This document shows positions 956-11,892 of a stretch of DNA of 64,000 bases, piece after piece; position 1 is the first letter of the stretch, and each line of letters begins with the position of its first letter. A program made the translations under genes and the position numbers. Source of the stretch: Geomonas sp. RF6. GTDB taxonomy: Bacteria; Desulfobacterota; Desulfuromonadia; Geobacterales; Geobacteraceae. Where the stretch lies: positions 2,677,001 through 2,741,000 of the forward strand of contig NZ_CP087999.1 of the NCBI RefSeq assembly GCF_021044625.1. Direction: 5' to 3'. Below the pieces are notes generated by a model. It made no database searches and was not told the origin of the DNA. It worked only from the letters and a program-made list of their open reading frames with translations.

Positions 956-1594
956 ATGCACGGAAAGATGCACCAGTCGCCGGACCTCGCCGAGTTCACC
1001 AAGGAGTTCAAGCCGAGGCGCCTCCCCCGCAAGACGATCATCTTCTCTCCCACCGACGAAATAGACGTCGTCTTCATGGTGAAGAAGGGGCGGCTGCGGG
1101 TGTACCTCGCCTTTGAGGACAAGGAATTCACCCTCGCCTTCCTGGAGCCCGGCGATTTCTTCAGCACGCACACGCGGGCTTTTGTGCAGTCGCTGGAGGA
1201 TACCGAGATCCTCGAGGTGAGCACTGCGCGCTTCCAGCAGAAAGCCACAGAAATTCCCGCCATTTCCCTCGGGATGATGAGGATTCTCGGATCCCTCTTC
1301 CGCAGTTCCATCTCCATCATAGAGGGGCTCGCCTTCAAGGACGTGCACCTGCGTCTGGTGGACTTCCTGGTGGAGTCCGCCGTGCAGCGCGGCCAGGCGG
1401 TCGAGGGTGGGATCCTGGTGGAACTCGGCCTCTCCACCGAAGACATCGCGCTTCTCGTCGGATCGACGAGGCAGACGATCTCCACCTTCCTGAACGGACT
1501 CATCAAGCGCGGCATCATCGAAAAGAAGGACCGTCGCACCCTCATCATCCGCGACCTCGAGGCGCTGAGGACGTGGAAGGATTCCGAGAAGTAG
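956..1594 (+). CDS. cooA: CooA-type CO-sensing transcriptional activator (CRP/FNR family)
   Basis: Predicted haem-containing activator that binds DNA when CO occupies the haem. The 212 residues have the CRP layout: cyclic-nucleotide-like effector domain (about 15-115), dimerisation helix (about 105-140) and winged helix-turn-helix (about 160-188, with STEDIALLVGSTRQTIS). In the loop where Rhodospirillum rubrum CooA carries its haem ligand His77 in FCMH, this protein has FSTH with His72, which supports CooA over a generic CRP. The redox-switch Cys75 of R. rubrum is Ser here. R. rubrum CooA uses the N-terminal Pro2 as second ligand; here the start is MHGKMHQ, so the second ligand would differ. 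The ATG has AAAGGGA about 6 bases upstream. A CooA-like operator lies 275 bases after the stop, just before the CO genes. Confidence 0.85.
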   Translation: MHGKMHQSPDLAEFTKEFKPRRLPRKTIIFSPTDEIDVVFMVKKGRLRVYLAFEDKEFTLAFLEPGDFFSTHTRAFVQSLEDTEILEVSTARFQQKATEIPAISLGMMRILGSLFRSSISIIEGLAFKDVHLRLVDFLVESAVQRGQAVEGGILVELGLSTEDIALLVGSTRQTISTFLNGLIKRGIIEKKDRRTLIIRDLEALRTWKDSEK

Positions 1595-1869: not shown

Positions 1870-1913
1870 TGTCGGTGACCTGACAGATCTTCCCTCCTCT
1901 TTTCTCCTATAGT
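1870..1913 (+). promoter_or_regulatory. CooA-type operator and promoter of the CO operon
   Basis: TGTCG-N6-TGACA (1870-1885) matches the five-base half-sites and six-base spacer known for R. rubrum CooA sites. A good -10 element, TATAGT, lies at 1908-1913, which puts transcription start near 1920 and the operator centre about 42 bases upstream. This is the position of a class II activator covering the -35 region. No good -35 hexamer is present, as expected for an activator-dependent promoter. The operator and -10 are read directly; the binding protein is inferred from the adjacent cooA. Confidence 0.75.
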
Positions 1914-1976: not shown

Positions 1977-2888
1977 ATGACAGCGGAGCGACAGGAAGCA
2001 AACCACCCTCTGAGGCTGCTGCGCATAAACGCAGGCTCGTGCAACGGCTGTGACGTCGAACTCACCGCCACCGCCTGCCTCTCCCGTTTTTCCTTCGAAC
2101 GCGCAGGCTTCGTCCTCACCGAAGATCCCGCCGAGGCCCAGATCGTCCTCATTACCGGTCCGCTGACTGTCCGGGTGAAGGAACAGGTTCTTCAGCTTTA
2201 TGCCGAGGTCCCGGAGCCGCACGTCACCGTCGCCGTCGGCGTCTGCCCCGCTTCAGGGGGCGTCTTCCGCGACAGCTACGCGATCGCGGGCCCCGTCGAG
2301 CGCTACCTCCCCGTCGAGGTCAATGTGCCGGGCTGCCCTCCGCGCCCCCAGGCGATCATGGAGGGGATGCAGGGAGCGGCCGCGCTCTGGCGCCAGAAAA
2401 CAGGTCTCCCCTCCTTCTCCCCCGCTGCCGCCGAGGACGCCCCCGCAGCGCCTGCGCCGGAGGGGCCCGGCGTCGCCGTTCGCGGCAAGCTCTCCTACGA
2501 CCCAGCCGCCTGTGCCGCGTGCCGCATGTGCGAGCACGTCTGCGCCGGAGGGGCGATCACCTTCACCGAGGACGGCGACGGCGTGCACTTTTCCCTGCAG
2601 CACAATGCCTGCGCCTTTTGCGGCTTGTGCACGCACTACTGCAAGACCGGCGCGCTGAAGCAGACCGGAAACTGGCACACGGCGCACTCCCGGGAGGAGA
2701 AGGCGGATTTCGTGGAGAGCGCCTCCATCCCGTACCGCCCCTGCGCGGTTTGCGGTGAGCCGATCCTCCCGGTGCCGACTGACCTGATCCGGCTCGCCTT
2801 CCGCGGCGTGAACCGGGACCTGGTCCGCCTGCAGAACCTCTGCCCCGAGTGCCGACAGGCGGAGACGCTTCTAGGAGTCAGACGATGA
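1977..2888 (+). CDS. Fusion of hydrogenase small subunit (CooL/NuoB-like) with a two-cluster ferredoxin domain
   Basis: Electron-transfer subunit of a group 4 [NiFe] hydrogenase, 303 residues. Residues about 10-140 are NuoB/CooL-like, with proximal [4Fe-4S] ligands Cys22, Cys25 (SCNGC), Cys90 (GVCPASGG) and Cys120 (GCPPRP). After an Ala/Pro-rich linker (about 146-168) comes a ferredoxin domain with two CxxCxxCxxxC motifs (Cys179-189 and Cys212-222), equivalent to the separate CooX protein of R. rubrum. The tail has a further CxxC...CxxC set (Cys256, 259, 289, 292), like the C-terminal ribbon of HycF-type subunits. The ATG at 1977 is preferred over TTG at 1959 because GGAG sits 5 bases upstream. 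Its stop overlaps the next start by four bases (ATGA). Confidence 0.87.
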   Translation: MTAERQEANHPLRLLRINAGSCNGCDVELTATACLSRFSFERAGFVLTEDPAEAQIVLITGPLTVRVKEQVLQLYAEVPEPHVTVAVGVCPASGGVFRDSYAIAGPVERYLPVEVNVPGCPPRPQAIMEGMQGAAALWRQKTGLPSFSPAAAEDAPAAPAPEGPGVAVRGKLSYDPAACAACRMCEHVCAGGAITFTEDGDGVHFSLQHNACAFCGLCTHYCKTGALKQTGNWHTAHSREEKADFVESASIPYRPCAVCGEPILPVPTDLIRLAFRGVNRDLVRLQNLCPECRQAETLLGVRR

Positions 2889-3418
2889 ACGAATTTCAGG
2901 AAAAGGTAGCGGCGCGGCTTCGGTCGAGCGCCGGCAAGGAGGTGGAGATTTCCTGGCGCGCCTCCGGCAAAGGAGTGCAGACCGGCTGGTGCACGGTCGC
3001 CGCCGCAGATCTCTTCCCCGTCGCTCAGGGGGTGCAGGAGCTCGACGGCAGGCTCTCCGCAATCACCGGGTATCTCTGCGCGGGAAAAGCTGACGAGGGT
3101 GCCCGCCAACTCGCCTACCACTTCGACCTCGACGGCGCCACCCTCACCGTCACTGTCCCCCTGCCGCTGCACGGTGCCACCGTTCCATCCCTCACCCCGA
3201 TCTTTCGCAGCGCCGACTGGAACGAGCGGGAGCTCATGGAGCTCTACGAGGTCGAGGTCGCAGGTCACCCCGACCCGCGCCGCCTCTTTTTGGACGAGTC
3301 GCTGGAGCCTGCCGCGCTGGAGCGGCTGATCCCCTACTCCTCCTTTATCAATGCGGCGAGCCCGAAGACCCTCTTTGAGAAGGTCCTCCTCGATCAGGGA
3401 AAGGAGGGGGCACGATGA
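2885..3418 (+). CDS. cooU: Hydrogenase 30-kDa-like subunit (CooU/NuoC type)
   Basis: Structural partner of the large subunit in complex I-like hydrogenases. The 177-residue protein is short and shows the NuoC signature near its C-terminal half: DWNERELMELYEV followed by GHPDPRRLFLDE. The upstream part is a poorly conserved mixed alpha/beta region, as usual in this family. The gene overlaps both neighbours by four bases (ATGA junctions), so the three hydrogenase genes are probably translationally coupled. In R. rubrum the same order L-X-U-H is found, here with L and X fused. Confidence 0.85.
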   Translation: MNEFQEKVAARLRSSAGKEVEISWRASGKGVQTGWCTVAAADLFPVAQGVQELDGRLSAITGYLCAGKADEGARQLAYHFDLDGATLTVTVPLPLHGATVPSLTPIFRSADWNERELMELYEVEVAGHPDPRRLFLDESLEPAALERLIPYSSFINAASPKTLFEKVLLDQGKEGAR

Positions 3419-4497
3419 CGGCTTCCATCATTACCCTCGACTCCCGCCAGCTCCAGCTCGAAGAGCCGATGTACTTCAACCTCGAGATGGACGGTGACAG
3501 GGTCGCCACGGTGGACGTGGTGGCGGGGCAGAGCCACCGCGGACTGGAGACGCTCGTCCTCAAGCGCAACTTCTACCAGAACATCACGCTCCTTGAGCGC
3601 CTCTGCTCGCTCTGCTCCAACAGCCACCCCTCCACCTTCTGCATGGCCCTGGAGGAGATCGCGGGTATCGCGATCCCCGAGCGAGCGGAGTACCTGCGCG
3701 TCATCGCCGACGAGATCAAGCGGATCGCCTCGCACCTCTTCAACTGCGCACTCCTTGCCCACATCGCGGGGCGCGACGCCCTCTTCAAGGAGATCATGGA
3801 GCTGCGCGAGATCATGCAGGACACCAAGGAGGCGATCTACGGCAACCGCATGGACCTCGCGGCGAACTGCCTCGGCGGCGTGCGCTACGATCCCTCCCCC
3901 GAAGCCCTCTCCTACCTGAAGGGGCAGATGGAAAAGATGAAGCAGCCGCTGGAAACGCTTCTCTCCCTCTTCGGCTCGGACGCCGGGCTGCGCGCCCGGA
4001 TGGAAGGGGTGGGGGTCCTCTCCCCGGAGCAGGCGAAGGCGTGCGGCGTGGTGGGGCCGGTGGCGCGCGCCTGCGGCATCGGGTACGACACGCGGCGCAA
4101 GAGCCCCTACTTCGCCTACCCCGATCTCCCCTTCGAGGTCGTTGTGGAGGAGGGGGGGGATGTGCGGGCCCGGGCCCTGGTGAGGCTGCGGGAAGCGCGG
4201 GAGTCGGTGGGGATCATCGAGCGGTGCGTGGAGAGGATGCCGGGCGGCCCGGTAGCGCCGGAGGTTCTGCCGGAGGTCCCGGCAGGGGAGGCGATCGCGA
4301 AATCGGAGGCGCCGCGCGGGGAGCTTCTGTACTACCTCGTGACGGACGGCTCCCAGCTCCCGGTGCGCCTGAAGTGGCGGGTGCCGAGCTTCATGAACTG
4401 GGATGCCCTCGGTTTCATGCTCAGGGGGGAGCGGCTCGCCGATATCCCTCTCATCGTTAACAGCATCGATCCGTGCATCTCCTGCACGGACCGCTGA
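3415..4497 (+). CDS. cooH: [NiFe] hydrogenase large subunit (CooH/NuoD type)
   Basis: Catalytic subunit reducing protons to H2, or the reverse, at a [NiFe] centre; 360 residues. Both nickel-binding motifs are intact: RLCSLCSNSH (Cys64, Cys67, His71) and DPCISC (Cys354, Cys357) at the very end. Intact motifs separate it from NuoD of complex I, where these Cys are lost. The protein stops three residues after the last Cys (TDR), so there is no C-terminal extension to be removed by a maturation protease, and no such protease gene is nearby. The gene is coupled to cooU by a four-base overlap; hypA follows after 10 bases. Membrane subunits of the CooM/CooK type are absent from the window. Confidence 0.9.
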   Translation: MTASIITLDSRQLQLEEPMYFNLEMDGDRVATVDVVAGQSHRGLETLVLKRNFYQNITLLERLCSLCSNSHPSTFCMALEEIAGIAIPERAEYLRVIADEIKRIASHLFNCALLAHIAGRDALFKEIMELREIMQDTKEAIYGNRMDLAANCLGGVRYDPSPEALSYLKGQMEKMKQPLETLLSLFGSDAGLRARMEGVGVLSPEQAKACGVVGPVARACGIGYDTRRKSPYFAYPDLPFEVVVEEGGDVRARALVRLREARESVGIIERCVERMPGGPVAPEVLPEVPAGEAIAKSEAPRGELLYYLVTDGSQLPVRLKWRVPSFMNWDALGFMLRGERLADIPLIVNSIDPCISCTDR

Positions 4498-4507
4498 CGG
4501 AGGGCGC

Positions 4508-4858
4508 ATGCACGAGATGTCGCTGGTGGCAAGCCTGATGGAGCTGATCGAAGACACCGTGCAACGCCACGACGTACAGCGCGTGGGACGGGTCTTTCTG
4601 AAGGCGGGGAGAATGGCCGCGGTGGAGCCGATGACGCTGCGCGCCTGCTTCGAGGCGCTCTCGGAGGGGACGGCGGCACAGGGGGCGGATCTCGTCATCG
4701 AAGAGGTGCCGGTGAGTTGCTCCTGCCGGGAGTGCACGAAGATCTACCGGGTGGAGAGGTACGACTTCCGCTGCCCGGTGTGCGGCAGCGGCGATACGGA
4801 GCTCCTGACCGGAAGGGAGCTGAGGCTTGACAGGCTGGAAGCTCTCTCGGCAGCGTGA
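4508..4858 (+). CDS. hypA: Hydrogenase nickel incorporation protein HypA
   Basis: Nickel metallochaperone that delivers Ni to the hydrogenase large subunit with HypB. The 116-residue length is typical. The N-terminal MHEMS contains His2, the family nickel ligand. The zinc-binding site is the pair CRECxxx...CPVCGS (Cys73, Cys76, Cys89, Cys92), with an extra Cys71. The ORF stays open upstream, but the MHE start is diagnostic. It sits directly behind cooH, so it most likely serves this hydrogenase. It is the only hyp gene in the window; HypB-F must be encoded elsewhere. Confidence 0.93.
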   Translation: MHEMSLVASLMELIEDTVQRHDVQRVGRVFLKAGRMAAVEPMTLRACFEALSEGTAAQGADLVIEEVPVSCSCRECTKIYRVERYDFRCPVCGSGDTELLTGRELRLDRLEALSAA

Positions 4859-4934
4859 GCGCCGATGGCACCGCGGGCGAGTCATCCGGAGCGGAGACAG
4901 AAAAGGGAGCAGTGAAATTGCAAAGGAGAGGTCA

Positions 4935-5513
4935 ATGAACCAGAAAATTCAGCAGCGGGAAAATGCCATCGTTTTCTGCGATGCGGAGAAGTGCCTCGGA
5001 TGCCACAGCTGTGAGCTGGCATGCGCGGTCGCCCACGGTGGCAAGGATCTGCACACCTCGGCGCTCTTGGGGATGACGCTGCGCCCCCGCACGAAGGTCG
5101 TCGCAGTCGCCGACATCATGATGCCGGTACAGTGCCGGCAATGCGAGGACGCGCCGTGCGCCTTCGCCTGCCCCAGCGGGTCGATCCGGCAGGAAGAAGG
5201 GCTGGTCACCATCCAGCAGCAGACGTGCATGGGGTGCAAGGCGTGCGTCATGGTCTGTCCCTTCGGCGCCATCAGCGTGAAGGGGAGCGGCGACGGTGGT
5301 CCTGCCCGCACCCGCACCAACCGCGGTGTCGCCCACAAATGTGACCTGTGCGCCGGCACCGGCAGGGAAACCCCCGCCTGCGTGGAGGGGTGCCCCAGGA
5401 AGGCGCTCAGCCTCATCGATCTCGAGGAATACCGCCAGACACTGCGCGAGGCCAGGGTGGCGGAGCTCGCTCAATCTCATAAATACCTCAAGAAAAGGAA
5501 GGAAACGCTATGA
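4935..5513 (+). CDS. cooF: CO dehydrogenase electron-transfer protein CooF (four [4Fe-4S] ferredoxin)
   Basis: Passes electrons from CooS to the hydrogenase or other acceptors. The 192 residues, close to R. rubrum CooF, carry four cysteine groups of the DmsB/CooF type: Cys20-30 (CLGCHSCELAC), Cys67-79 (CRQCxxxxC...C), Cys98-108 (CMGCKACVMVC) and Cys136-153 (CDLC...C...C). An additional Cys15 lies just before the first group. The start has an excellent AAGGAGAG ribosome binding site 4-5 bases upstream, although the frame is open further up. The stop overlaps the cooS start by four bases, giving tight CooF:CooS coupling. Confidence 0.92.
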   Translation: MNQKIQQRENAIVFCDAEKCLGCHSCELACAVAHGGKDLHTSALLGMTLRPRTKVVAVADIMMPVQCRQCEDAPCAFACPSGSIRQEEGLVTIQQQTCMGCKACVMVCPFGAISVKGSGDGGPARTRTNRGVAHKCDLCAGTGRETPACVEGCPRKALSLIDLEEYRQTLREARVAELAQSHKYLKKRKETL

Positions 5514-7417
5514 GCCTCAACAAATCGACCGATCCGTCCGCAGCCGAGCTTCTCCCCCTGGCGAAAAAACAGGGGATCGAAACGGTGTGGGACCGCTACA
5601 AGGCGATGCAGCCGCAATGCGGCTACGGCCAGCTTGGCGTCTGCTGCCGCATCTGCTGGAAAGGCCCCTGCAGGGTCGACCCCTTCGGCGACGGCCCGCA
5701 GCGCGGGATCTGCGGCGCCGATGCCGACACCATCGTGGCGCGCAACGTGATCCGCATGATCGCCGCCGGTGCCGCGGGACACTCGGAGCACGGCCGGCAC
5801 ATAACGATCGCCCTCCTCGGAGTCGCCGAGGGTAAGCTCCCCGCCTACCAGATCCGCGACGAGGCGAAGCTGCGCTCCATCGCTGCGAAGCTGAAGATCG
5901 AGACGGAAGGGAAGGAGATAGCCGAGATCGCGAAGGAAATCGCGCTCGTGACCCTCTTTGACTTCCAGAACCAGGACCACGACCAGTGCCTTACCTGGCT
6001 CTCCTCCACCCTCACGGAAAAGCGCCTGGAAAAACTCGGCGCGCTGCACGTACTGCCGCACAACATCGACGCTACCATCACCAACATCATGGGACGGACC
6101 CTGGTCGGCTGCGATGCGGATCCGGCAAACCTGATCCTCGGGGGGGTGAAAGGGGCGCTCGCCGACTACGATGGCATGTGCCTCGCCACCGAGCTCTCCG
6201 ACGCCCTTTTCGGGACGCCGCAGCCGGTGGTCACCACAGCGAACCTCGGCGTGCTCCGTGAGGACGCGGTGAACATCGCGGTGCACGGCCACAACCCGCT
6301 CCTGAGCGAAGTCGTCTGTGACGTCGCCGCCCTCATGAACGACGAGGCGATCAAGGCGGGGGCCCCGGGGGGGATCAACATCGTGGGGATCTGCTGCACC
6401 GGAAACGAGGTGATGGTGCGCCACGGCGTCCCGCTGGCCGCCAACTACCTCTCCCAGGAGCTTGCGCTGGTGACCGGCGCGGTCGATGCCATGGTCGTAG
6501 ACGTGCAGTGCATCATGCCGTCGGTGGCGGGAATTGCCTCCTGCTTCCACACCCAGGTCATCACCACGCTGGATGAGAACAAGATGCCGGGCGCGACGCA
6601 CATTCCGCTGCGCACCGAGACCGCGACGGAGAGCGCCCGGCAGATCGTGGACACGGCGATCCAGGCGTTCAAGCGGCGCAACCCGGCAAGGGTGCACATT
6701 CCGGACACGAAGACAACCGCCGTTGCCGGCTTCAGCACGGAGGCGATTGTCGGTGCGCTGAGCCTTGTCAACGCGGAGGACCCGCTGAAGCCCCTCATCG
6801 ACAACATCGTGAACGGCAACATCCAGGGGGTCGCCCTCTTCGCAGGTTGCAACAACCCGCAGGTGCCGCAGGACAGCGCCTTCGTCACCATCGCGAAGAA
6901 GCTCGCGGCGAACAACGTCCTTCTCCTCGCCACCGGGTGCGGCGCGGGGGCGCTTGCCAAGCACGGCCTGATGAACCAGGAGGCGACGGAGAAGTTTGCC
7001 GGTGAAGGGCTGAAAGCGGTCCTTACCGCCGTCGGCAACGCCGCCGGCCTGAACGGCCCTCTGCCGCTGGTGCTGCACATGGGCTCCTGCGTAGACAACA
7101 GCCGTGCGGTCGAGGTTGCGGTCGCCGTCGCCAACAAGCTGGGGGTCGATCTCGACGCCCTGCCGCTGGTGGCATCCGCCTCCGAGGCGATGAGCGAGAA
7201 GGCAGTGGCGATCGGCACCTGGAGCGTGGCGCTCGGCATCCCGACTCACCTCGGGACCATGCCGCAGGTAACCGGCTCCCCGGTGGTAACCGAGCTCCTC
7301 ACCGCGACCGCGAAGGATCTTTTCGGCGGGTACTTCCTCGTCGAGCTCGATCCGGAGGCAGCCGCCGACAAGCTGCTGCAGGTGATCCAGGGGCGGCGCA
7401 AGGCGCTGGGGATCTAG
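5510..7417 (+). CDS. cooS: Anaerobic Ni-Fe carbon monoxide dehydrogenase catalytic subunit
   Basis: Oxidises CO with water to CO2, two protons and two electrons. The 635 residues align almost without offset to Carboxydothermus CODH II. D-cluster Cys37 and Cys45 and B-cluster Cys46, Cys49, Cys54 and Cys68 are present. C-cluster ligands are His261 (VHGHNP), Cys295/296, Cys334, Cys447, Cys477 and Cys527, and the catalytic Lys564 is kept (SEAMSEKAVA). The proton-relay histidines around His91, His94 and His97 are also present. All metal ligands being intact indicates an active enzyme. It is a stand-alone CODH, not part of an acetyl-CoA synthase, since no ACS gene is nearby. Confidence 0.96.
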   Translation: MSLNKSTDPSAAELLPLAKKQGIETVWDRYKAMQPQCGYGQLGVCCRICWKGPCRVDPFGDGPQRGICGADADTIVARNVIRMIAAGAAGHSEHGRHITIALLGVAEGKLPAYQIRDEAKLRSIAAKLKIETEGKEIAEIAKEIALVTLFDFQNQDHDQCLTWLSSTLTEKRLEKLGALHVLPHNIDATITNIMGRTLVGCDADPANLILGGVKGALADYDGMCLATELSDALFGTPQPVVTTANLGVLREDAVNIAVHGHNPLLSEVVCDVAALMNDEAIKAGAPGGINIVGICCTGNEVMVRHGVPLAANYLSQELALVTGAVDAMVVDVQCIMPSVAGIASCFHTQVITTLDENKMPGATHIPLRTETATESARQIVDTAIQAFKRRNPARVHIPDTKTTAVAGFSTEAIVGALSLVNAEDPLKPLIDNIVNGNIQGVALFAGCNNPQVPQDSAFVTIAKKLAANNVLLLATGCGAGALAKHGLMNQEATEKFAGEGLKAVLTAVGNAAGLNGPLPLVLHMGSCVDNSRAVEVAVAVANKLGVDLDALPLVASASEAMSEKAVAIGTWSVALGIPTHLGTMPQVTGSPVVTELLTATAKDLFGGYFLVELDPEAAADKLLQVIQGRRKALGI

Positions 7418-7472
7418 GAACAGGATTTAGGAAACACCCTGAAGGACGCAGGAATCAGCAACAACCGGCCTC

Positions 7473-7521
7473 ACGTTCCCTCCCCTTCAAGGGGAGGGAC
7501 AGGGTGGGGATGGGGGCAATC
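7473..7521. repeat. CCTCCC/GGGAGG palindromic repeat, family A copy 1
   Basis: A short copy of the paired GC-rich palindrome family: CCCTCCCCTTCAAGGGGAGGG followed by ACAGGGTGGGGATGGGGG. It lies in the 123-base gap between cooS and cooC and interrupts an otherwise tightly packed operon. The stem could lower cooC expression or stabilise the upstream mRNA. Confidence 0.75.
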
Positions 7522-7540
7522 CCCAGGGAGAACAAGCACG

Positions 7541-8392
7541 ATGTGTCAAGGGCACGATCACGATCATGAGCACCATCATCACCATCACCACGAGGAGAGC
7601 TGCAGCTCCTCCGGGAAAGGGGTAAAGATAGCGATCACCGGGAAGGGCGGGGTGGGGAAAACGACGCTTGCGGCGCTTTTGGCGCGCTCCTTTGCCGATC
7701 ACGGCGGGCGGGTGCTGGCGGTGGACGCCGATCCCGACGCCAATCTCGCCACTGCGCTCGGGATCTCCGCAGCCGCTCTTACCGAGGTGCAGCCGATCTC
7801 GCGGATGAAGGATCTCGCGAAGGAGCGCACCGGCGCCCAGGAAGGGTACGGGTCCTTTTTCAAGCTGAACCCGCAGGTGAACGATCTCCCCGACACCTTC
7901 AGCGTCGAGCACGACGGAGTCCGCCTCTTGCAGATGGGGACGGTGGAGCAGGGGGGGACGGGGTGCGTCTGCCCGGAACACACCCTGGTGAAGCGGTTGA
8001 TGAAGCATCTTCTTCTGGAGCGTGACGACGTCGTCATCATGGACATGGAGGCGGGTATCGAGCATCTCGGGCGTGGAACGGCCGAGTCGGTGGACGGCGT
8101 CATCGTCGTAGTCGAACCTGGGCAGCGCAGCGTACAGACCGCTCAGCAGATCACCCGCCTTGCCTCCGACATCGGGATCAGGAAAGTGTTCGTGGTGGGG
8201 AGCAAGGTCCAGAACGAGAAGGACAGGGAGTTTATAGAGGCGGCGCTCCCGGAGCACGAGCTGCTGGGCTTCATCTCCTACAGTGACGAGATAAAGCGCG
8301 CCGACATGGGTGAAGGGAGCGTCTCCGGGCAGAGCGCCCGCGAGGCGTGCGCCATACGCGAGAGGCTGATGGCACAGGTGGTTGCGGGGTGA
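7541..8392 (+). CDS. cooC: CO dehydrogenase nickel-insertion ATPase CooC with N-terminal His-rich tail
   Basis: MinD/NifH-type P-loop ATPase that inserts nickel into the CooS C-cluster. The deviant Walker A is GKGGVGKTT (34-42), the Asp switch is VDADPD (61-66), and the CVC motif (Cys142, Cys144), which binds metal at the dimer interface, is present. The first 19 residues hold ten histidines (HDHDHEH7), a tail resembling the His-rich region of CooJ, which is otherwise a separate nickel chaperone in R. rubrum. The start has AGGGAGA upstream. The 283 residues are longer than a plain CooC by about the length of this tail. No separate cooT or cooJ gene is seen. Confidence 0.92.
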   Translation: MCQGHDHDHEHHHHHHHEESCSSSGKGVKIAITGKGGVGKTTLAALLARSFADHGGRVLAVDADPDANLATALGISAAALTEVQPISRMKDLAKERTGAQEGYGSFFKLNPQVNDLPDTFSVEHDGVRLLQMGTVEQGGTGCVCPEHTLVKRLMKHLLLERDDVVIMDMEAGIEHLGRGTAESVDGVIVVVEPGQRSVQTAQQITRLASDIGIRKVFVVGSKVQNEKDREFIEAALPEHELLGFISYSDEIKRADMGEGSVSGQSAREACAIRERLMAQVVAG

Positions 8393-8410
8393 GTCGGACA
8401 GGTCGGACCG
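8393..8410. repeat. Two 9-bp GTCGGACNG tandem units
   Basis: Immediately after the cooC stop, GTCGGACAG and GTCGGACCG follow in tandem. The same 9-base unit occurs five times in tandem at 36,129-36,173. Function unknown. Confidence 0.6.
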
Positions 8411-8414
8411 CAAG

Positions 8415-8527
8415 ATCCCCCTCCCTTGACGGGAGGGGGACAGGGGGTGGGTGAAGCTGCCATCTGCTGAAATGGTGGCGCCTTCCCCCCCACCCTGTCC
8501 CTCCCCCGCAAGGGGGGAGGGGACGTG
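8415..8527. repeat. Paired GC-rich palindromes, family A copy 2
   Basis: Two palindromic arms (CCCCCTCCCTTGACGGGAGGGGG and CCCTCCCCCGCAAGGGGGGAGGGG) flank a central stretch containing GCTGCCATCTGCTGAAATGGTGGC. The element is nearly the reverse complement of the copy at 20,972-21,088. It separates the convergent cooC and phosphodiesterase genes and could act as a two-way terminator, although no T tract is present. Confidence 0.8.
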
Positions 8528-8532
8528 CGAGC

Positions 8533-8985
8533 CTACTCCTCGATCCGCACAATCTCCGCGTCGACCTTTCCGTCGACCACCTCCACCCGCGCGACGGTGA
8601 CGGGGAGGTGGAACCTTCGGGGGCCGGCGCTGCCGGGGTTCAGGTAGAGCACCCCCTCCTTCCTGGTGACAGCCGCCTTGTGGGAGTGCCCGCTGATGAC
8701 GCACCGGACCCCCTCCGGCAGCGCCTCCAGATCGTGCACGTTGTGTATCACCAGGAAGCGTGCTCCTCCCGCCTCAAACTCCTCTACATCCTTCAGTTTC
8801 TCCGACCAGGCTCCCTTGTCGCAGTTACCCCGTATGGCCACAAGTGGCGCCATTTCCCGCAGCGCCTCCAGCACGGCCTGGGAACAGACGTCCCCTCCGT
8901 GCACGATGAGGTCGCTGCCGCGCAACGCCTCCAGCGCGGCGGGGCGCATCACCTTGTGCGTGTCGGATATCACCCCGATCTTCAT
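8533..8985 (-). CDS. YfcE/MJ0936-family metallophosphoesterase
   Basis: Predicted cytoplasmic phosphodiesterase with a two-metal centre. The 150 residues carry the complete motif set: DTH (Asp8, His10), GGDV (Asp32), GNCD (Asn54), His81 (VIHN) and GHSH (His100, His102). The ATG is chosen because GGGAGG lies 4 bases upstream; the frame extends further upstream into terC but without a comparable site. terC starts upstream on the same strand with only 13 bases between the genes, so they may be co-transcribed. The physiological substrate cannot be read from the sequence. Confidence 0.9.
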   Translation of the reverse strand: MKIGVISDTHKVMRPAALEALRGSDLIVHGGDVCSQAVLEALREMAPLVAIRGNCDKGAWSEKLKDVEEFEAGGARFLVIHNVHDLEALPEGVRCVISGHSHKAAVTRKEGVLYLNPGSAGPRRFHLPVTVARVEVVDGKVDAEIVRIEE

Positions 8986-8998
8986 GGCTCCTCCCTTC

Positions 8999-9940
8999 TC
9001 ACTTCCCCTTCGGGGCGTGCCCGTGCTTGCCATGCATCTTGTCCGCCACGAGTGACACAACGATCGAAAGAACGAGCGTCCCGATGATCACGCCGAGGGA
9101 GACGTGCAGCGCGATGGGGTACAGGTCGCTCACGATCATCTTCACCCCGACAAAAGCGAGGATGAAGGAGACCCCGAGCTTCAGGTACCTGAACATGTCC
9201 ACCACATGGGCGAGGAGGTAGTACAGGGAGCGCAGTCCCATGATGGCGAAGACGTTGGAGCTGTACACGATGAAGGGATCTCGTGTGACCGCAAGGACCG
9301 CCGGGATCGAATCGACCGCGAAGATGACGTCGCTCGACTCGACCACCAGAAGTGTCAGGAATAGAGGGGTTACCGCGGTGACTCCATTTCTTCGGACGAA
9401 GAAGCGGTCGCCATGCTGCCTCTTCGTCACCGGGAAGCGGGTGCGCACCAGTCGCACGAGGAGATTTTTCTCCGGCTCAATCTCGTCGTCTCCGCCGAAG
9501 CACATCTTGATCCCCGTCACCACAAGGATCCCGCCGAAAAGGTAGACCATCCAGTGAAACTTCTCCATGAGCCCGATCCCCATGACGATGAAGACCGCCC
9601 TCATCACGAGAGCGCCGAGGATGCCCCACTTGAGGATCTTCGGCTGGTGGGCGCGGCTTACCTTGAAGTAGGAGAAGATCATGATGAAGACAAAGAGGTT
9701 GTCTACGGAGAGAGATTCCTCGATGACGTAGCCGGTGAAAAACTCCAGCGCCTTCACCTTGCCGAGGAAATACCAGACGGCGCCGTTGAAGAGAAGGGCC
9801 AGGGATACCCAGACGGTGGTCCACAAAAGCGCCTCACGAAACTTTATTTCGTGGCTATGGCGGTTGACCCAGAGATCGATCACAAACATAACGGAAACAA
9901 CGGCTACAAAAATAATCCACATCAAGCTCTGGGATGACAC
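8999..9940 (-). CDS. TerC/Alx-family integral membrane protein
   Basis: Inner-membrane protein of the TerC superfamily, linked in other bacteria to metal (manganese, tellurite) homeostasis or export. The 313 residues form about nine hydrophobic segments. The conserved acidic intramembrane motifs are present: EESLSVDNLFVF near residue 74 and VVESSDVIFAVDSIPA near residue 200, as in Alx. The C-terminus is short and His/Lys-rich (KMHGKHGHAPKGK). The start is GTG with AAGGAG 6 bases upstream; an in-frame ATG follows six codons later. No tel/ter partners are nearby, so Alx-like manganese transport is more likely than a ter resistance operon. Confidence 0.9.
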   Translation of the reverse strand: MSSQSLMWIIFVAVVSVMFVIDLWVNRHSHEIKFREALLWTTVWVSLALLFNGAVWYFLGKVKALEFFTGYVIEESLSVDNLFVFIMIFSYFKVSRAHQPKILKWGILGALVMRAVFIVMGIGLMEKFHWMVYLFGGILVVTGIKMCFGGDDEIEPEKNLLVRLVRTRFPVTKRQHGDRFFVRRNGVTAVTPLFLTLLVVESSDVIFAVDSIPAVLAVTRDPFIVYSSNVFAIMGLRSLYYLLAHVVDMFRYLKLGVSFILAFVGVKMIVSDLYPIALHVSLGVIIGTLVLSIVVSLVADKMHGKHGHAPKGK

Positions 9941-9955
9941 TAGCGCTCCTTCTTA

Positions 9956-9980
9956 TAAAAAGGACACCGTACGGTGTCTT
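9956..9980 (-). terminator. Rho-independent terminator after the Nudix gene
   Basis: Read on the minus strand, the perfect palindrome GACACCGTACGGTGTC (9963-9978) is followed by CCTTTTTATA. This gives a six-base stem with a GTAC loop and a T tract. It lies between the Nudix gene and the terC ribosome binding site, so terC probably has separate transcription or depends on read-through. A DNA-binding operator is the alternative reading of the palindrome. Confidence 0.65.
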
Positions 9981-10014
9981 GATCTGCACGTGAAAGCCTG
10001 CTTTCCACCGGCCG

Positions 10015-10479
10015 CTACGGCGCGTCGAGGAGTGCACACAACTCGTCTATGAAACCTGCCTGCCCCTTGATTATCTTCTCCCGGGCCAACTGAAGCGGAA
10101 ACCAATCTGCCTTGTCCACCTCGGGAAACTCCGACTGCAGACCCGATTTTGGCGGCCACTCCATGGTAAATGTGTTGCTGTGCGCCTTCGCGGGGTCGCA
10201 GTCACCCTCGAACGCCCAGGCGCTGATCGTCTTCCCCCCCGGCTGCTTCAGCGGTGTGAGCTTGCGGTACGGCTCCCGCGGCTGCACACCGGTTTCCTCT
10301 TCAAATTCCCGCTTTGCGGCCTGCAGCGACTCTTCCCCCTCGAGGCACTCCCCCTTCGGTATCGTCCACGCTCCGAGATCCTTCCCTCTCCAGAAGGGCC
10401 CTCCGGGGTGCACCAGAAAGAGCTCGATACCGGACGCCCCGTACCGGAACATCAGAAGCCCCGCGCTCTTCTTCGCCAT
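10015..10479 (-). CDS. Nudix hydrolase
   Basis: Predicted pyrophosphohydrolase of 154 residues. The Nudix box Gx5Ex7REUxEExGU is complete at residues 43-65, with REFEEETGV carrying the metal-binding glutamates. A WTIPKGE segment precedes it, as in the Ap4A-hydrolase-like group of small bacterial Nudix proteins acting on NTP or dinucleoside polyphosphates. The N-terminal SAGLLMFR and the family-typical FLVHPGGPFW match the DR0004-like Nudix group. tldD lies upstream on the same strand with a 30-base gap. The exact substrate is not determinable. Confidence 0.9.
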   Translation of the reverse strand: MAKKSAGLLMFRYGASGIELFLVHPGGPFWRGKDLGAWTIPKGECLEGEESLQAAKREFEEETGVQPREPYRKLTPLKQPGGKTISAWAFEGDCDPAKAHSNTFTMEWPPKSGLQSEFPEVDKADWFPLQLAREKIIKGQAGFIDELCALLDAP

Positions 10480-10509
10480 GGCGTCTCCTGTGGGGCCGCC
10501 TGCTGAGGA

Positions 10510-11892
10510 TCAGGCGGCGCCGCCGACGGTGATCCCGGAGATAAGGAGCGTTGGCTGGGCGTCCGCGACCGGCACCCCTTGCCCGTCCTTGCCGCAGGTT
10601 CCTATGCCAAAGCCGAGGTCGCTCCCCACCATGGTGATCGCCTTCAGCACCTCCGGACCGTTCCCCGTAAGGGTCGCCCCGCGCACCGGTTCACCTATGA
10701 TCCCGTTTTCGATGAGGTACCCTTCGGAGACCTCGAAGACGAAGTTGCCGTTGGTGGTGTTCACCTGGCCCCCCCCCATGCGCCGCACGAAAAGCCCCTG
10801 CTGCACCGTTTTCACGATCTCGTCCGGTGCGGAGCTTCCGGGGGCGATGAGGGTGTTGCTCATCCTCACGATCGGCCTCATGCGGTACGACTCTCTCCTC
10901 CCGTTCCCGGTGGAGGCGCAGCCGTCCTTCATGGCGGAGAGCCGGTCGTACATGTACCCCTTCAGGATGCCGTTTTCCACGAGGATGGTGCGCTGCCCCG
11001 CCGTCCCTTCGCTGTCGAAGAAGAAGGAGCCGCGCGCGTTGGCGATGGTGGCGTCGTCGACGACGGTGACAAGGGGGCTCGCCACCTCTTCTCCGATCCT
11101 CCCCGCGTACACGGATGTCCCCGCCTGCACGAGATCCGCTTCCAGTCCGTGCCCGATCGCCTCGTGCACCATCGTCCCCCCCGCCTCGGAGGAGAGGACG
11201 ACCGGGAAGGTGCCGCCGGGGGACTTGCGGGCGCCCAGCATCATGACGCCGCGTGCCGCCGCCTTCAGCGCCTGCTCCTCAGGGGAGGCGCCATTGAAGA
11301 GCTCGAAGCCGCGCAGCGCCCCGAGAGGCTCGTACCCGGTCTGCACGATCTCGCCGTCCTGCGCCACGACCTGCACCGTGAAGAGGGTGGAGGTGGCGTG
11401 GTCCTCGCTGAACTCGCCGAGCGAATTGGCGCACTGCGTCCGCACCCGGTTGTCGCGGTACATCGCCATGACCTGCCGCACCCGGCGGTCGTAGCCGCGG
11501 GCCGCGCGGTCGGCGCGGGTTACCAGCGCCACCTTCTCCTGGAGGGGGATACCGTCCGGCGCGATCTCCACGGGGAAGCCGGCGCTGACCCTTTTCTCGG
11601 TGAGATCGATGGAGCCGCCGAAGGCCCCGCCCCGCACCCCTCTGCTGAGGGTGTCGGCCAGGGCGAGGAGCGCCTCCTCGGTGAGCTGGTTCGTGTAGGC
11701 GTACGCGGTGGAGAGGTCGCTGACGACCCTGATGCCGATCCCCCGGTCAGCGGCGGAGAGAACACGCTCCACCTTCCCGTCGTCGCACAGGACCGCGTTG
11801 TAGGAGGAGTCCTCGAAGTAGATGTCGGCGAAGTCCCCCCCTGCGGAGAGGGCCCGGCGCAGGATCCGCTCGATGTCGAATCTATCCAGCAC
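10510..11892 (-). CDS. tldD: Metalloprotease TldD
   Basis: Cytoplasmic metalloprotease subunit that with PmbA/TldE processes peptides, including microcin B17 and CcdA in E. coli. The 460 residues match TldD length. The zinc-binding HExxxH is HEAIGH at 243-248, and the downstream glycine-rich ends (GRIGEEVASP, SEGTAGQRT, GTCGKDGQG) are typical. The start is a GTG that shares one base with the TAG of the upstream DUF4911 gene, with GGAGG 7 bases before it, so the two are coupled. The PmbA/TldE partner is not in the window. Confidence 0.92.
   Translation of the reverse strand: MLDRFDIERILRRALSAGGDFADIYFEDSSYNAVLCDDGKVERVLSAADRGIGIRVVSDLSTAYAYTNQLTEEALLALADTLSRGVRGGAFGGSIDLTEKRVSAGFPVEIAPDGIPLQEKVALVTRADRAARGYDRRVRQVMAMYRDNRVRTQCANSLGEFSEDHATSTLFTVQVVAQDGEIVQTGYEPLGALRGFELFNGASPEEQALKAAARGVMMLGARKSPGGTFPVVLSSEAGGTMVHEAIGHGLEADLVQAGTSVYAGRIGEEVASPLVTVVDDATIANARGSFFFDSEGTAGQRTILVENGILKGYMYDRLSAMKDGCASTGNGRRESYRMRPIVRMSNTLIAPGSSAPDEIVKTVQQGLFVRRMGGGQVNTTNGNFVFEVSEGYLIENGIIGEPVRGATLTGNGPEVLKAITMVGSDLGFGIGTCGKDGQGVPVADAQPTLLISGITVGGAA

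Follow-up and report, generated by a model that had tools for sequence, protein, structure and literature searches.

An arm-less CO dehydrogenase–hydrogenase module in Geomonas and its relatives: a likely soluble, uncoupled CO:H+ oxidoreductase

The coo locus of Geomonas sp. RF6 pairs a carbon monoxide (CO) dehydrogenase (CODH) with a hydrogenase of the energy-converting type, with no membrane-arm genes beside them. It therefore raises the question of whether the arm is encoded elsewhere in the genome or whether the enzyme is soluble. The locus lies in a 64,000-base stretch of DNA, hereafter the window, which corresponds to positions 2,677,001-2,741,000 of the closed 5,258,610-base genome. Open reading frames (ORFs) and family searches gave the gene order cooA–[CooL-X fusion]–cooU–cooH–hypA–cooF–cooS–cooC, all on the plus strand, with operon-like overlaps of a few bases at three adjoining pairs (LX-U, U-H and F-S). 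The original prediction had placed a CODH/hydrogenase locus with L(X), U and H subunits at 1977-8392; its coordinates and subunit content were correct but for L and X, which form a single fused protein. The known counterpart is the CooMKLXUH-CooFS complex of R. rubrum, Rx. gelatinosus and C. hydrogenoformans, which we take to be a group 4c hydrogenase. The locus has orthologs of CooA, L, X, U, H, F, S and C, and its CooH is 52-64% identical to CooH from loci with an arm, with the same Ni-Fe ligands. It differs from that system in the lack of CooM and CooK, in the fusion of L and X and in the loss of docking elements. Judged from its sequence, the locus likely encodes a CODH/energy-converting hydrogenase (ECH; CooMKLXUH plus CooFS) that lost its arm once and would now act as a soluble, cytoplasmic, uncoupled, CO-induced CO:H+ oxidoreductase.

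We searched for a membrane arm in the window and across the closed genome. No PF00361 or PF00146 match fell inside the 64-kb window, so that neither cooM nor cooK was found there, and the expectation that no membrane-arm genes lie beside the hydrogenase held. The Ech-type membrane subunits EchA and EchB are likewise not in the coo operon. Genome-wide, PF00361 gave 15 matches and PF00146 gave 5, all of them in Nuo, Ech, Ehr or Mrp clusters, and no CooM/CooK pair was present in the closed genome. These arm-type clusters comprise three Nuo clusters, one Ech operon, one Ehr-type cluster and one Mrp operon; the third Nuo cluster and the Ech, Ehr and Mrp clusters were read gene by gene, and family matches served to place the remaining two Nuo clusters. 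Peripheral subunits of their own accompany all arm clusters except the Mrp operon. PF00346 large subunits occur at six places in the genome, the coo locus included, and the large subunit of the Ehr-type cluster is without the Ni-Fe CxxC pairs. By reading, the Ech operon at 5.04 Mb encodes EchA, EchB, EchC, EchE, EchF, HypA and HypB. This operon (L024, about 5,034,700-5,045,700) is directly followed by [FeFe] hydrogenase-, NuoF- and NuoE-like genes. One PF00361 frame of about 1145-1148 aa at 1.8686 Mb was a CooM candidate by length, and was rejected as an MrpD-like half joined, by reading, to an ATP-dependent DNA-ligase-like half. The fusion ORF (L022 6432-9869, minus strand; about 1,866,431-1,869,868) lies within the Mrp operon.

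CooH orthologs with 66-70% identity were found in 18 of the 141 genomes of the order, the window's included, and all of them are at arm-less loci. They are spread over 4 of 29 genera in two families, and a metagenome-assembled genome (MAG; L098) contributed a 19th arm-less locus. Relatives reached by contig match were from Geomonas, Citrifermentans and Pelotalea. All 17 relatives gave matches to LX, U, H and F; S and cooA were matched in 16, and C and hypA in 15, with several of the misses at contig ends. Searches by tblastn for EchA, EchB, NuoH, L, M, N, HyfB and HyfC gave no match in the fetched regions of these relatives, of which L062, L064 and L077 are on short contigs; two of the 17 genomes are drafts of 78% and 90% completeness. 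CooK-range PF00146 matches were not found in the 18 arm-less genomes. Their matches lay in the NuoH range (312-438 bits) or the Ehr range (105-118 bits), and between 118 and 312 bits the sole match was EchB (153.7 bits), seen in the window's genome alone. Four Ehr-level matches in relatives were opened, and all carry Ehr genes. As a control, CooK, matched by coordinates, was recovered from all 7 armed genomes examined, with scores of 195-226 bits; because other arms also score near this range (180-205 bits in the control, for example), a score within it is not proof of CooK.

A wider scan covered contigs from 84,980 species, of which the best 80 of 173 relatives were taken. A locus was called armed when a tblastn match to EchB, NuoH or HyfC lay within the fetched region. 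Of 86 loci compared, 62 had NuoH/CooK-like genes beside the hydrogenase, 19 were arm-less (window included) and 5 were undecided, namely L140 together with L122, L125, L157 and L162, these last four being cut by contig ends. L087-L097 and L099 repeat contigs already present among L061-L077, and neither the tree nor the contrasts include them. The CooH tree, which was midpoint-rooted and included one distant Ech row, set the 19 arm-less loci apart from the rest by a branch supported at 100/100. Nearest to them was a Desulfuromonadales MAG, L100 (94/88, slightly under the 95/80 mark), whose locus reads cooM (cut at the contig end)-cooK-L-X-U-H-hypB-hypA-F-S. Since an armed locus is nearest to a single arm-less branch, one loss is the simplest reading, and we consider a single loss, from an armed ancestor within the Desulfuromonadales lineage, the most likely course.

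The arm-less loci have also changed at the face on which the arm would dock. A single ORF encodes both L and X at 18 of the 19 arm-less loci, compared with none of the 62 armed loci. Armed CooX has an N-terminal stretch like FLKILxRNLxxGPSTDPFPFGETFTP, and in the window the linker of the fusion occupies the place of the amphipathic helix and GPSTxPFPF loop of this stretch. The motif was present in 62 of 62 armed loci (57 by a strict pattern and 5 variants by eye) compared with 0 of 19 arm-less loci. Armed CooX from L100 aligns with HycF residues 1-162 and with MbhN from residue 6; the match of the window fusion to HycF starts no earlier than HycF residue 28. The X helix is reported to be present in all solved structures of the complex I superfamily (PMC9474812). 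In CooL, the residues SPW before the first cluster motif were found in 60 of 60 armed loci (two of the 62 L proteins were not extracted) and in 0 of 19 arm-less loci. The NDUFS7 loop is described as one of four loops at the interface of the soluble and membrane parts (PMC9474812). By alignment its equivalent, HycG 69-80, corresponds to window residues 44-55. The armed loci have Cys (60/60), Gly (59/60) and His (60/60) in this loop, which were retained in 0, 1 and 0 of the 19 arm-less loci, and the window replacements are Thr48, Glu49 and Glu53.

CooH itself showed a comparable contrast. Position 12, in the beta1-beta2 interface loop, is His in 61 of 62 armed loci and Gln in 19 of 19 arm-less loci. 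It aligns with HycE chain position 200, presumably native His188 if the HycE length implies a tag shift of 12. HycE His188 is described as lying, with HycD Phe122, in the pocket for a HycC loop Cys, together with the membrane subunits (PMC9474812). Three further CooH residues, Met125, His126 and Asp136, are 94-100% conserved in armed loci and mostly Arg in arm-less ones, the change at Asp136, which is invariant in armed CooH, saying little alone because HycE has Lys there. The active-site Cys residues are unchanged across arm-less CooH. A model of LX was of moderate quality and lends weak support (mean pLDDT 70.6, pTM 0.56); with Foldseek, L matched MbhJ/HycG and X matched HycF, and there was no solved fusion among the 50 matches listed.

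What sets the module apart from the CODH/ECH complexes is thus the lack of CooM/CooK and of the docking elements (the X helix, the L SPW, the loop residues and the CooH His). It is the loss of the docking parts that favours a soluble enzyme over an arm encoded elsewhere, two of the alternatives that the original prediction had put forward. With both the membrane pump and its docking parts lost, the complex of these iron-reducing bacteria is probably free in the cytoplasm and would gain no energy by itself. We regard it as probable, if slightly less so than the loss of the arm and the soluble state, that evolution has here freed an energy-converting CO hydrogenase of the complex I superfamily from its proton pump and remodelled the cut face, by fusing two subunits, losing the membrane helix and replacing coupling-loop residues, to give a natural and conserved water-gas-shift enzyme that is soluble and uncoupled.

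L-X-U-H genes without a nearby M/K or CODH match were also seen at L140 (Consotaella; 8243-11050) and L162 (1-2469, beginning at a contig end). A second loss of the arm was rejected here, since the membrane helix motif of X is kept in both and SPW is kept in L of L140, and neither was counted as arm-less. Their arm may be encoded elsewhere, and the L140 genome has two PF00146 matches elsewhere, of 195 and 198 bits. The L140 genes adjoin XdhC-like and molybdenum-hydroxylase-like genes. A separate observation on LX concerns L076 (7875-8891) and L077 (867-1841), in which a stretch DRHLRSxSP is repeated between the cluster motifs of the X domain; this is perhaps the intragenic multicopy sequence named in a figure legend of PMC2996986.

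The catalytic parts appear complete. CooH has both Cys pairs of a group 4 CooH-type catalytic module, Cys64 and Cys67 (CSLC) and Cys354 and Cys357 (DPCISC), and NuoB-, NuoI- and NuoC-like neighbours. None of the four Cys residues varies among the 18 orthologs aligned, in agreement with the earlier statement that the hydrogenase metal ligands are intact. The best matches of the CooH profile in the Protein Data Bank (PDB) were the membrane-bound hydrogenase (MBH; 6cfw_L) and formate hydrogenlyase (FHL; 7z0s_E). CooL-CooX consists of a NuoB-like small subunit, a variable linker and a 2x[4Fe-4S] ferredoxin domain, with extra Cys pairs close to the C-terminus, as in HycF; its PDB matches were MbhJ (4e-32), HycG (1e-26) and HycF (3.8e-10, from residue 167 only). 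The best NCBIfam matches of CooF were AegA (9.7e-41) and HydN (3.5e-40), both under the cut-off, and CooF is the expected electron link from CooS to LX. CooS residues 6-635 align with R. rubrum CODH (630 residues), and the Cys/His columns for the C-, B- and D-clusters are kept in the alignment to 1jqk and 1su6; we take these columns to be the metal ligands. CooS, CooF and the cluster motifs in LX could provide every step of electron transfer to CooH, whose Ni-Fe site is intact. The features of the locus are given in Table 1.

Table 1. Features of the coo locus in window coordinates
Feature	Position	Strand	Evidence or remark
CooA-type CO-sensing CRP/FNR regulator	956..1594	+	phmmer best PDB 2fmy/2hkx CooA-1 (1.8e-64, 4.4e-63), also 1ft9 (6.4e-35)
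CooA-box-like palindrome TGTCGGTGACCTGACA	1870..1885		91 bases upstream of LX start codon
CooL-CooX fusion, 303 aa	1977..2888	+	PF01058 4.6e-23; Fer4 models slightly under cut-offs
CooL-CooX linker, about residues 151-168	2427..2480	+	pLDDT <50 in model
CooU, NuoC-like subunit, 177 aa	2885..3418	+	PF00329 1.6e-17
CooH, [NiFe] hydrogenase large subunit, 360 aa	3415..4497	+	PF00346 4.7e-65, PF00374 4.5e-9
HypA nickel chaperone	4508..4858	+	TIGR00100 7.8e-28, above cut-off
CooF, HydN/HycB-like polyferredoxin	4935..5513	+	Pfam Fer4 matches; name from position and orthologs
CooS, Ni-CO dehydrogenase catalytic subunit, 635 aa	5510..7417	+	TIGR01702 9.5e-229, above cut-off; 1jqk 2.3e-274
CooC-type Ni-insertion ATPase	7541..8392	+	P-loop CbiA family match; name from position and orthologs

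CooC has a His-rich N-terminal extension in Geomonas sp. RF6 and in 15 of 15 readable relatives (L061, L063-L076), which looks like a built-in nickel store. A second CODH in the genome was considered and rejected: three of the four other PF03063 matches are hybrid-cluster proteins by NCBIfam, and the fourth (L029) was read as a member of the hybrid-cluster family from its MFCYQCEQ start.

The regulator is predicted to be a CooA from its CRP fold, which is nearest CooA, its heme axial His and the presence of a CooA box 5′ of the coo genes. The axial His motif, GDFFSTHTRA, is kept in the window, with Ser in place of the Cys of C. hydrogenoformans CooA-1 (FCTHTRA). Ser was found at this position in 16 of 16 arm-less CooA proteins with a readable motif (L061, which gave no pattern match, and L062 and L077, in which no CooA ORF was called, are excluded), and also at several armed loci. 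Because this second ligand position is Ser, the oxidised heme may have a different ligand in the CooA of this clade. The box upstream of LX agrees with the consensus TGTCGGCnnGCCGACA published for Desulfovibrio and R. rubrum (PMC545781). All 18 loci examined have a box at this position, L098 being outside this count; 17 boxes were exact to TGTCRN6YGACA and that of L064 had one mismatch. The stricter CTGTCGGN4CCGACAG occurred in 12 of the 18 arm-less genomes, once in each and always at the coo locus; it was not found in the window's own genome, which has the looser box. Most of the relatives have cooA ahead of LX; in L061, L063 and L066 cooA is 3′ of cooC, yet the box remains upstream of LX. 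In the window's genome TGTCRN6YGACA occurs at 9 places compared with 7 for a reversed-pattern control, so that the genome-wide count is near chance; one of the 9 is that before LX, and none is near the Ech, Nuo, Ehr or other arm clusters. A cooMK pair elsewhere in the genome under CooA control, which the original prediction had named as the sign of a separately encoded arm, was accordingly not seen in the closed genome.

CooH is under purifying selection, as judged from dN/dS values of 0.038-0.104 in 7 of 7 close pairs. No 19-residue Kyte-Doolittle window above 1.6 was found in LX, U, H, HypA, F or C. An uptake-type [NiFe] hydrogenase large-subunit gene (PF00374, >700 bits) was present in 18 of 18 arm-less genomes, and the window's genome has, by reading, two such hydrogenases with Tat-signal small subunits. 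With these enzymes in the genome, H2 made inside the cell can probably be re-oxidised.

From these findings we propose the following scheme. CO would activate CooA, which would induce the operon, and CooS would oxidise CO to CO2. Electrons would then pass from CooF to the X clusters, the L clusters and CooH, where protons would become H2 without pumping. The entire difference between the CO and H2 couples, given as -20 kJ/mol in PMC13077300, would pull CO down; because the reaction lacks an arm and would be uncoupled, CO could be drawn lower than a pumping enzyme could draw it. The H2 would be taken up again by the uptake hydrogenases, with energy gained only downstream, and the role of the module would be CO removal and H2 supply.

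Several observations weigh against a soluble CO:H+ oxidoreductase. In E. coli, removal of HycC and HycD is reported to abolish FHL activity in vivo, and the soluble complex without HycCD keeps about 5% of dye-linked hydrogenase activity (PMC5061711). Since plain amputation leaves FHL nearly dead, an enzyme that works without its arm must have undergone some adaptation, which in this clade may lie in the remodelled face. The hypA match is missing in 3 of 18 arm-less relatives (L063, L066 and L098), and L070, the exception to the fusion, has an L-X frame break at the linker (around 11,040-11,140). The genome-wide search for CooM with PF00361 covered the window's genome only. Besides one NuoH, the L098 genome has a partial PF00146 match of 188.5 bits, covering 129 columns and lying where a contig ends, which was provisionally read as a piece of NuoH. 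CooS contains one 19-residue Kyte-Doolittle window at 1.75, which we put down to its globular core.

Three other explanations were weighed. The foremost, which we nevertheless consider unlikely, is that the module is a detoxifying CO sink whose electrons go mainly to ferredoxin or another acceptor, with H2 a minor product. The low hydrogenase activity of amputated FHL (PMC5061711) fits such a sink, as does the CooS-CooF-FNOR cluster of G. sulfurreducens, extracts of which are reported to oxidise CO without H2 and to reduce NADP+ (PMC4703632). However, the Ni-Fe site has been kept, as seen from the four Cys residues invariant in 18 of 18 CooH proteins and the hypA match in 15 of 17 relatives, and an FNOR family match was found in 0 of 8 locus proteins. 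Still less probable is a borrowed arm, in which LXUH would dock onto another membrane arm, such as EchA-EchB at 5.04 Mb, and continue to conserve energy. An Ech hydrogenase with both subunits is indeed present in the window's genome, and CooH is 36% identical to EchE of the same genome. This Ech is, by reading, already supplied with C, E and F subunits, though, no EchB-range PF00146 match occurs in the other 17 module-bearing genomes (two of them the drafts mentioned above), the docking elements are gone from LX and CooH, and the Ech, Nuo and Ehr loci are without a nearby CooA palindrome.

The least probable explanation by some distance is a decaying remnant that lost its arm by accident and whose hydrogenase is out of use. 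Two subunits have been lost, L070 has a frame break, and 123 of the 141 genomes of the order are without an ortholog at the threshold used. Yet the module persists over two families and four genera with invariant ligands and a conserved CooA box, and the dN/dS values (0.04-0.10 in 7 of 7 pairs) point to purifying selection, by which this explanation is largely refuted.

The module has relatives and analogs among systems already described. CooH, L and X match HycE/G/F of FHL and MbhL/J/N of MBH, which differ in that both possess a membrane arm and, in HycF/MbhN, an N-terminal membrane element. A peripheral arm without membrane subunits also has precedents in an MBH subcomplex of P. furiosus, reportedly engineered by McTernan in 2015 as a catalytically active cytoplasmic form, and in E. 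coli FHL without HycCD. Those subcomplexes are man-made, and the FHL one is nearly inactive, whereas the coo module is natural, conserved and remodelled. In G. sulfurreducens, a related bacterium, the CODH operon also encodes predicted cytoplasmic proteins; it has NAD(P) reduction rather than a hydrogenase, and RcoM rather than CooA (PMC4703632). A cooLXUH-hypA-cooFSC cluster of G. bemidjiensis (Gbem_0067-0074), apparently the same as our arm-less locus L076, was reported in 2010. The passage on this cluster proposes a proton gradient and is silent on the missing membrane subunits (PMC2996986). Geobacter has been counted among the carriers of CODH-ECH (PMC6687684, PMC13077300), and PMC6687684 describes scoring such loci by the hydrogenase large and small subunits. 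We found no description of an arm-less CODH-hydrogenase or of the missing arm in the literature searched, most subscription papers being outside the reach of that search.

Hydrogenases of this group are generally viewed as membrane-bound and mostly as ion pumps. An arm-less clade whose active site is under strong selection is a natural experiment on the residues that couple catalysis to the arm, a question shared with complex I. Our results suggest that energy-conserving CO oxidisers can be overcounted when genome surveys score CODH-ECH by the large and small hydrogenase subunits, and that the proton gradient proposed for G. bemidjiensis may have been wrongly inferred. A mesophilic enzyme that turns CO into H2 in soluble form could also serve as a simple catalyst.

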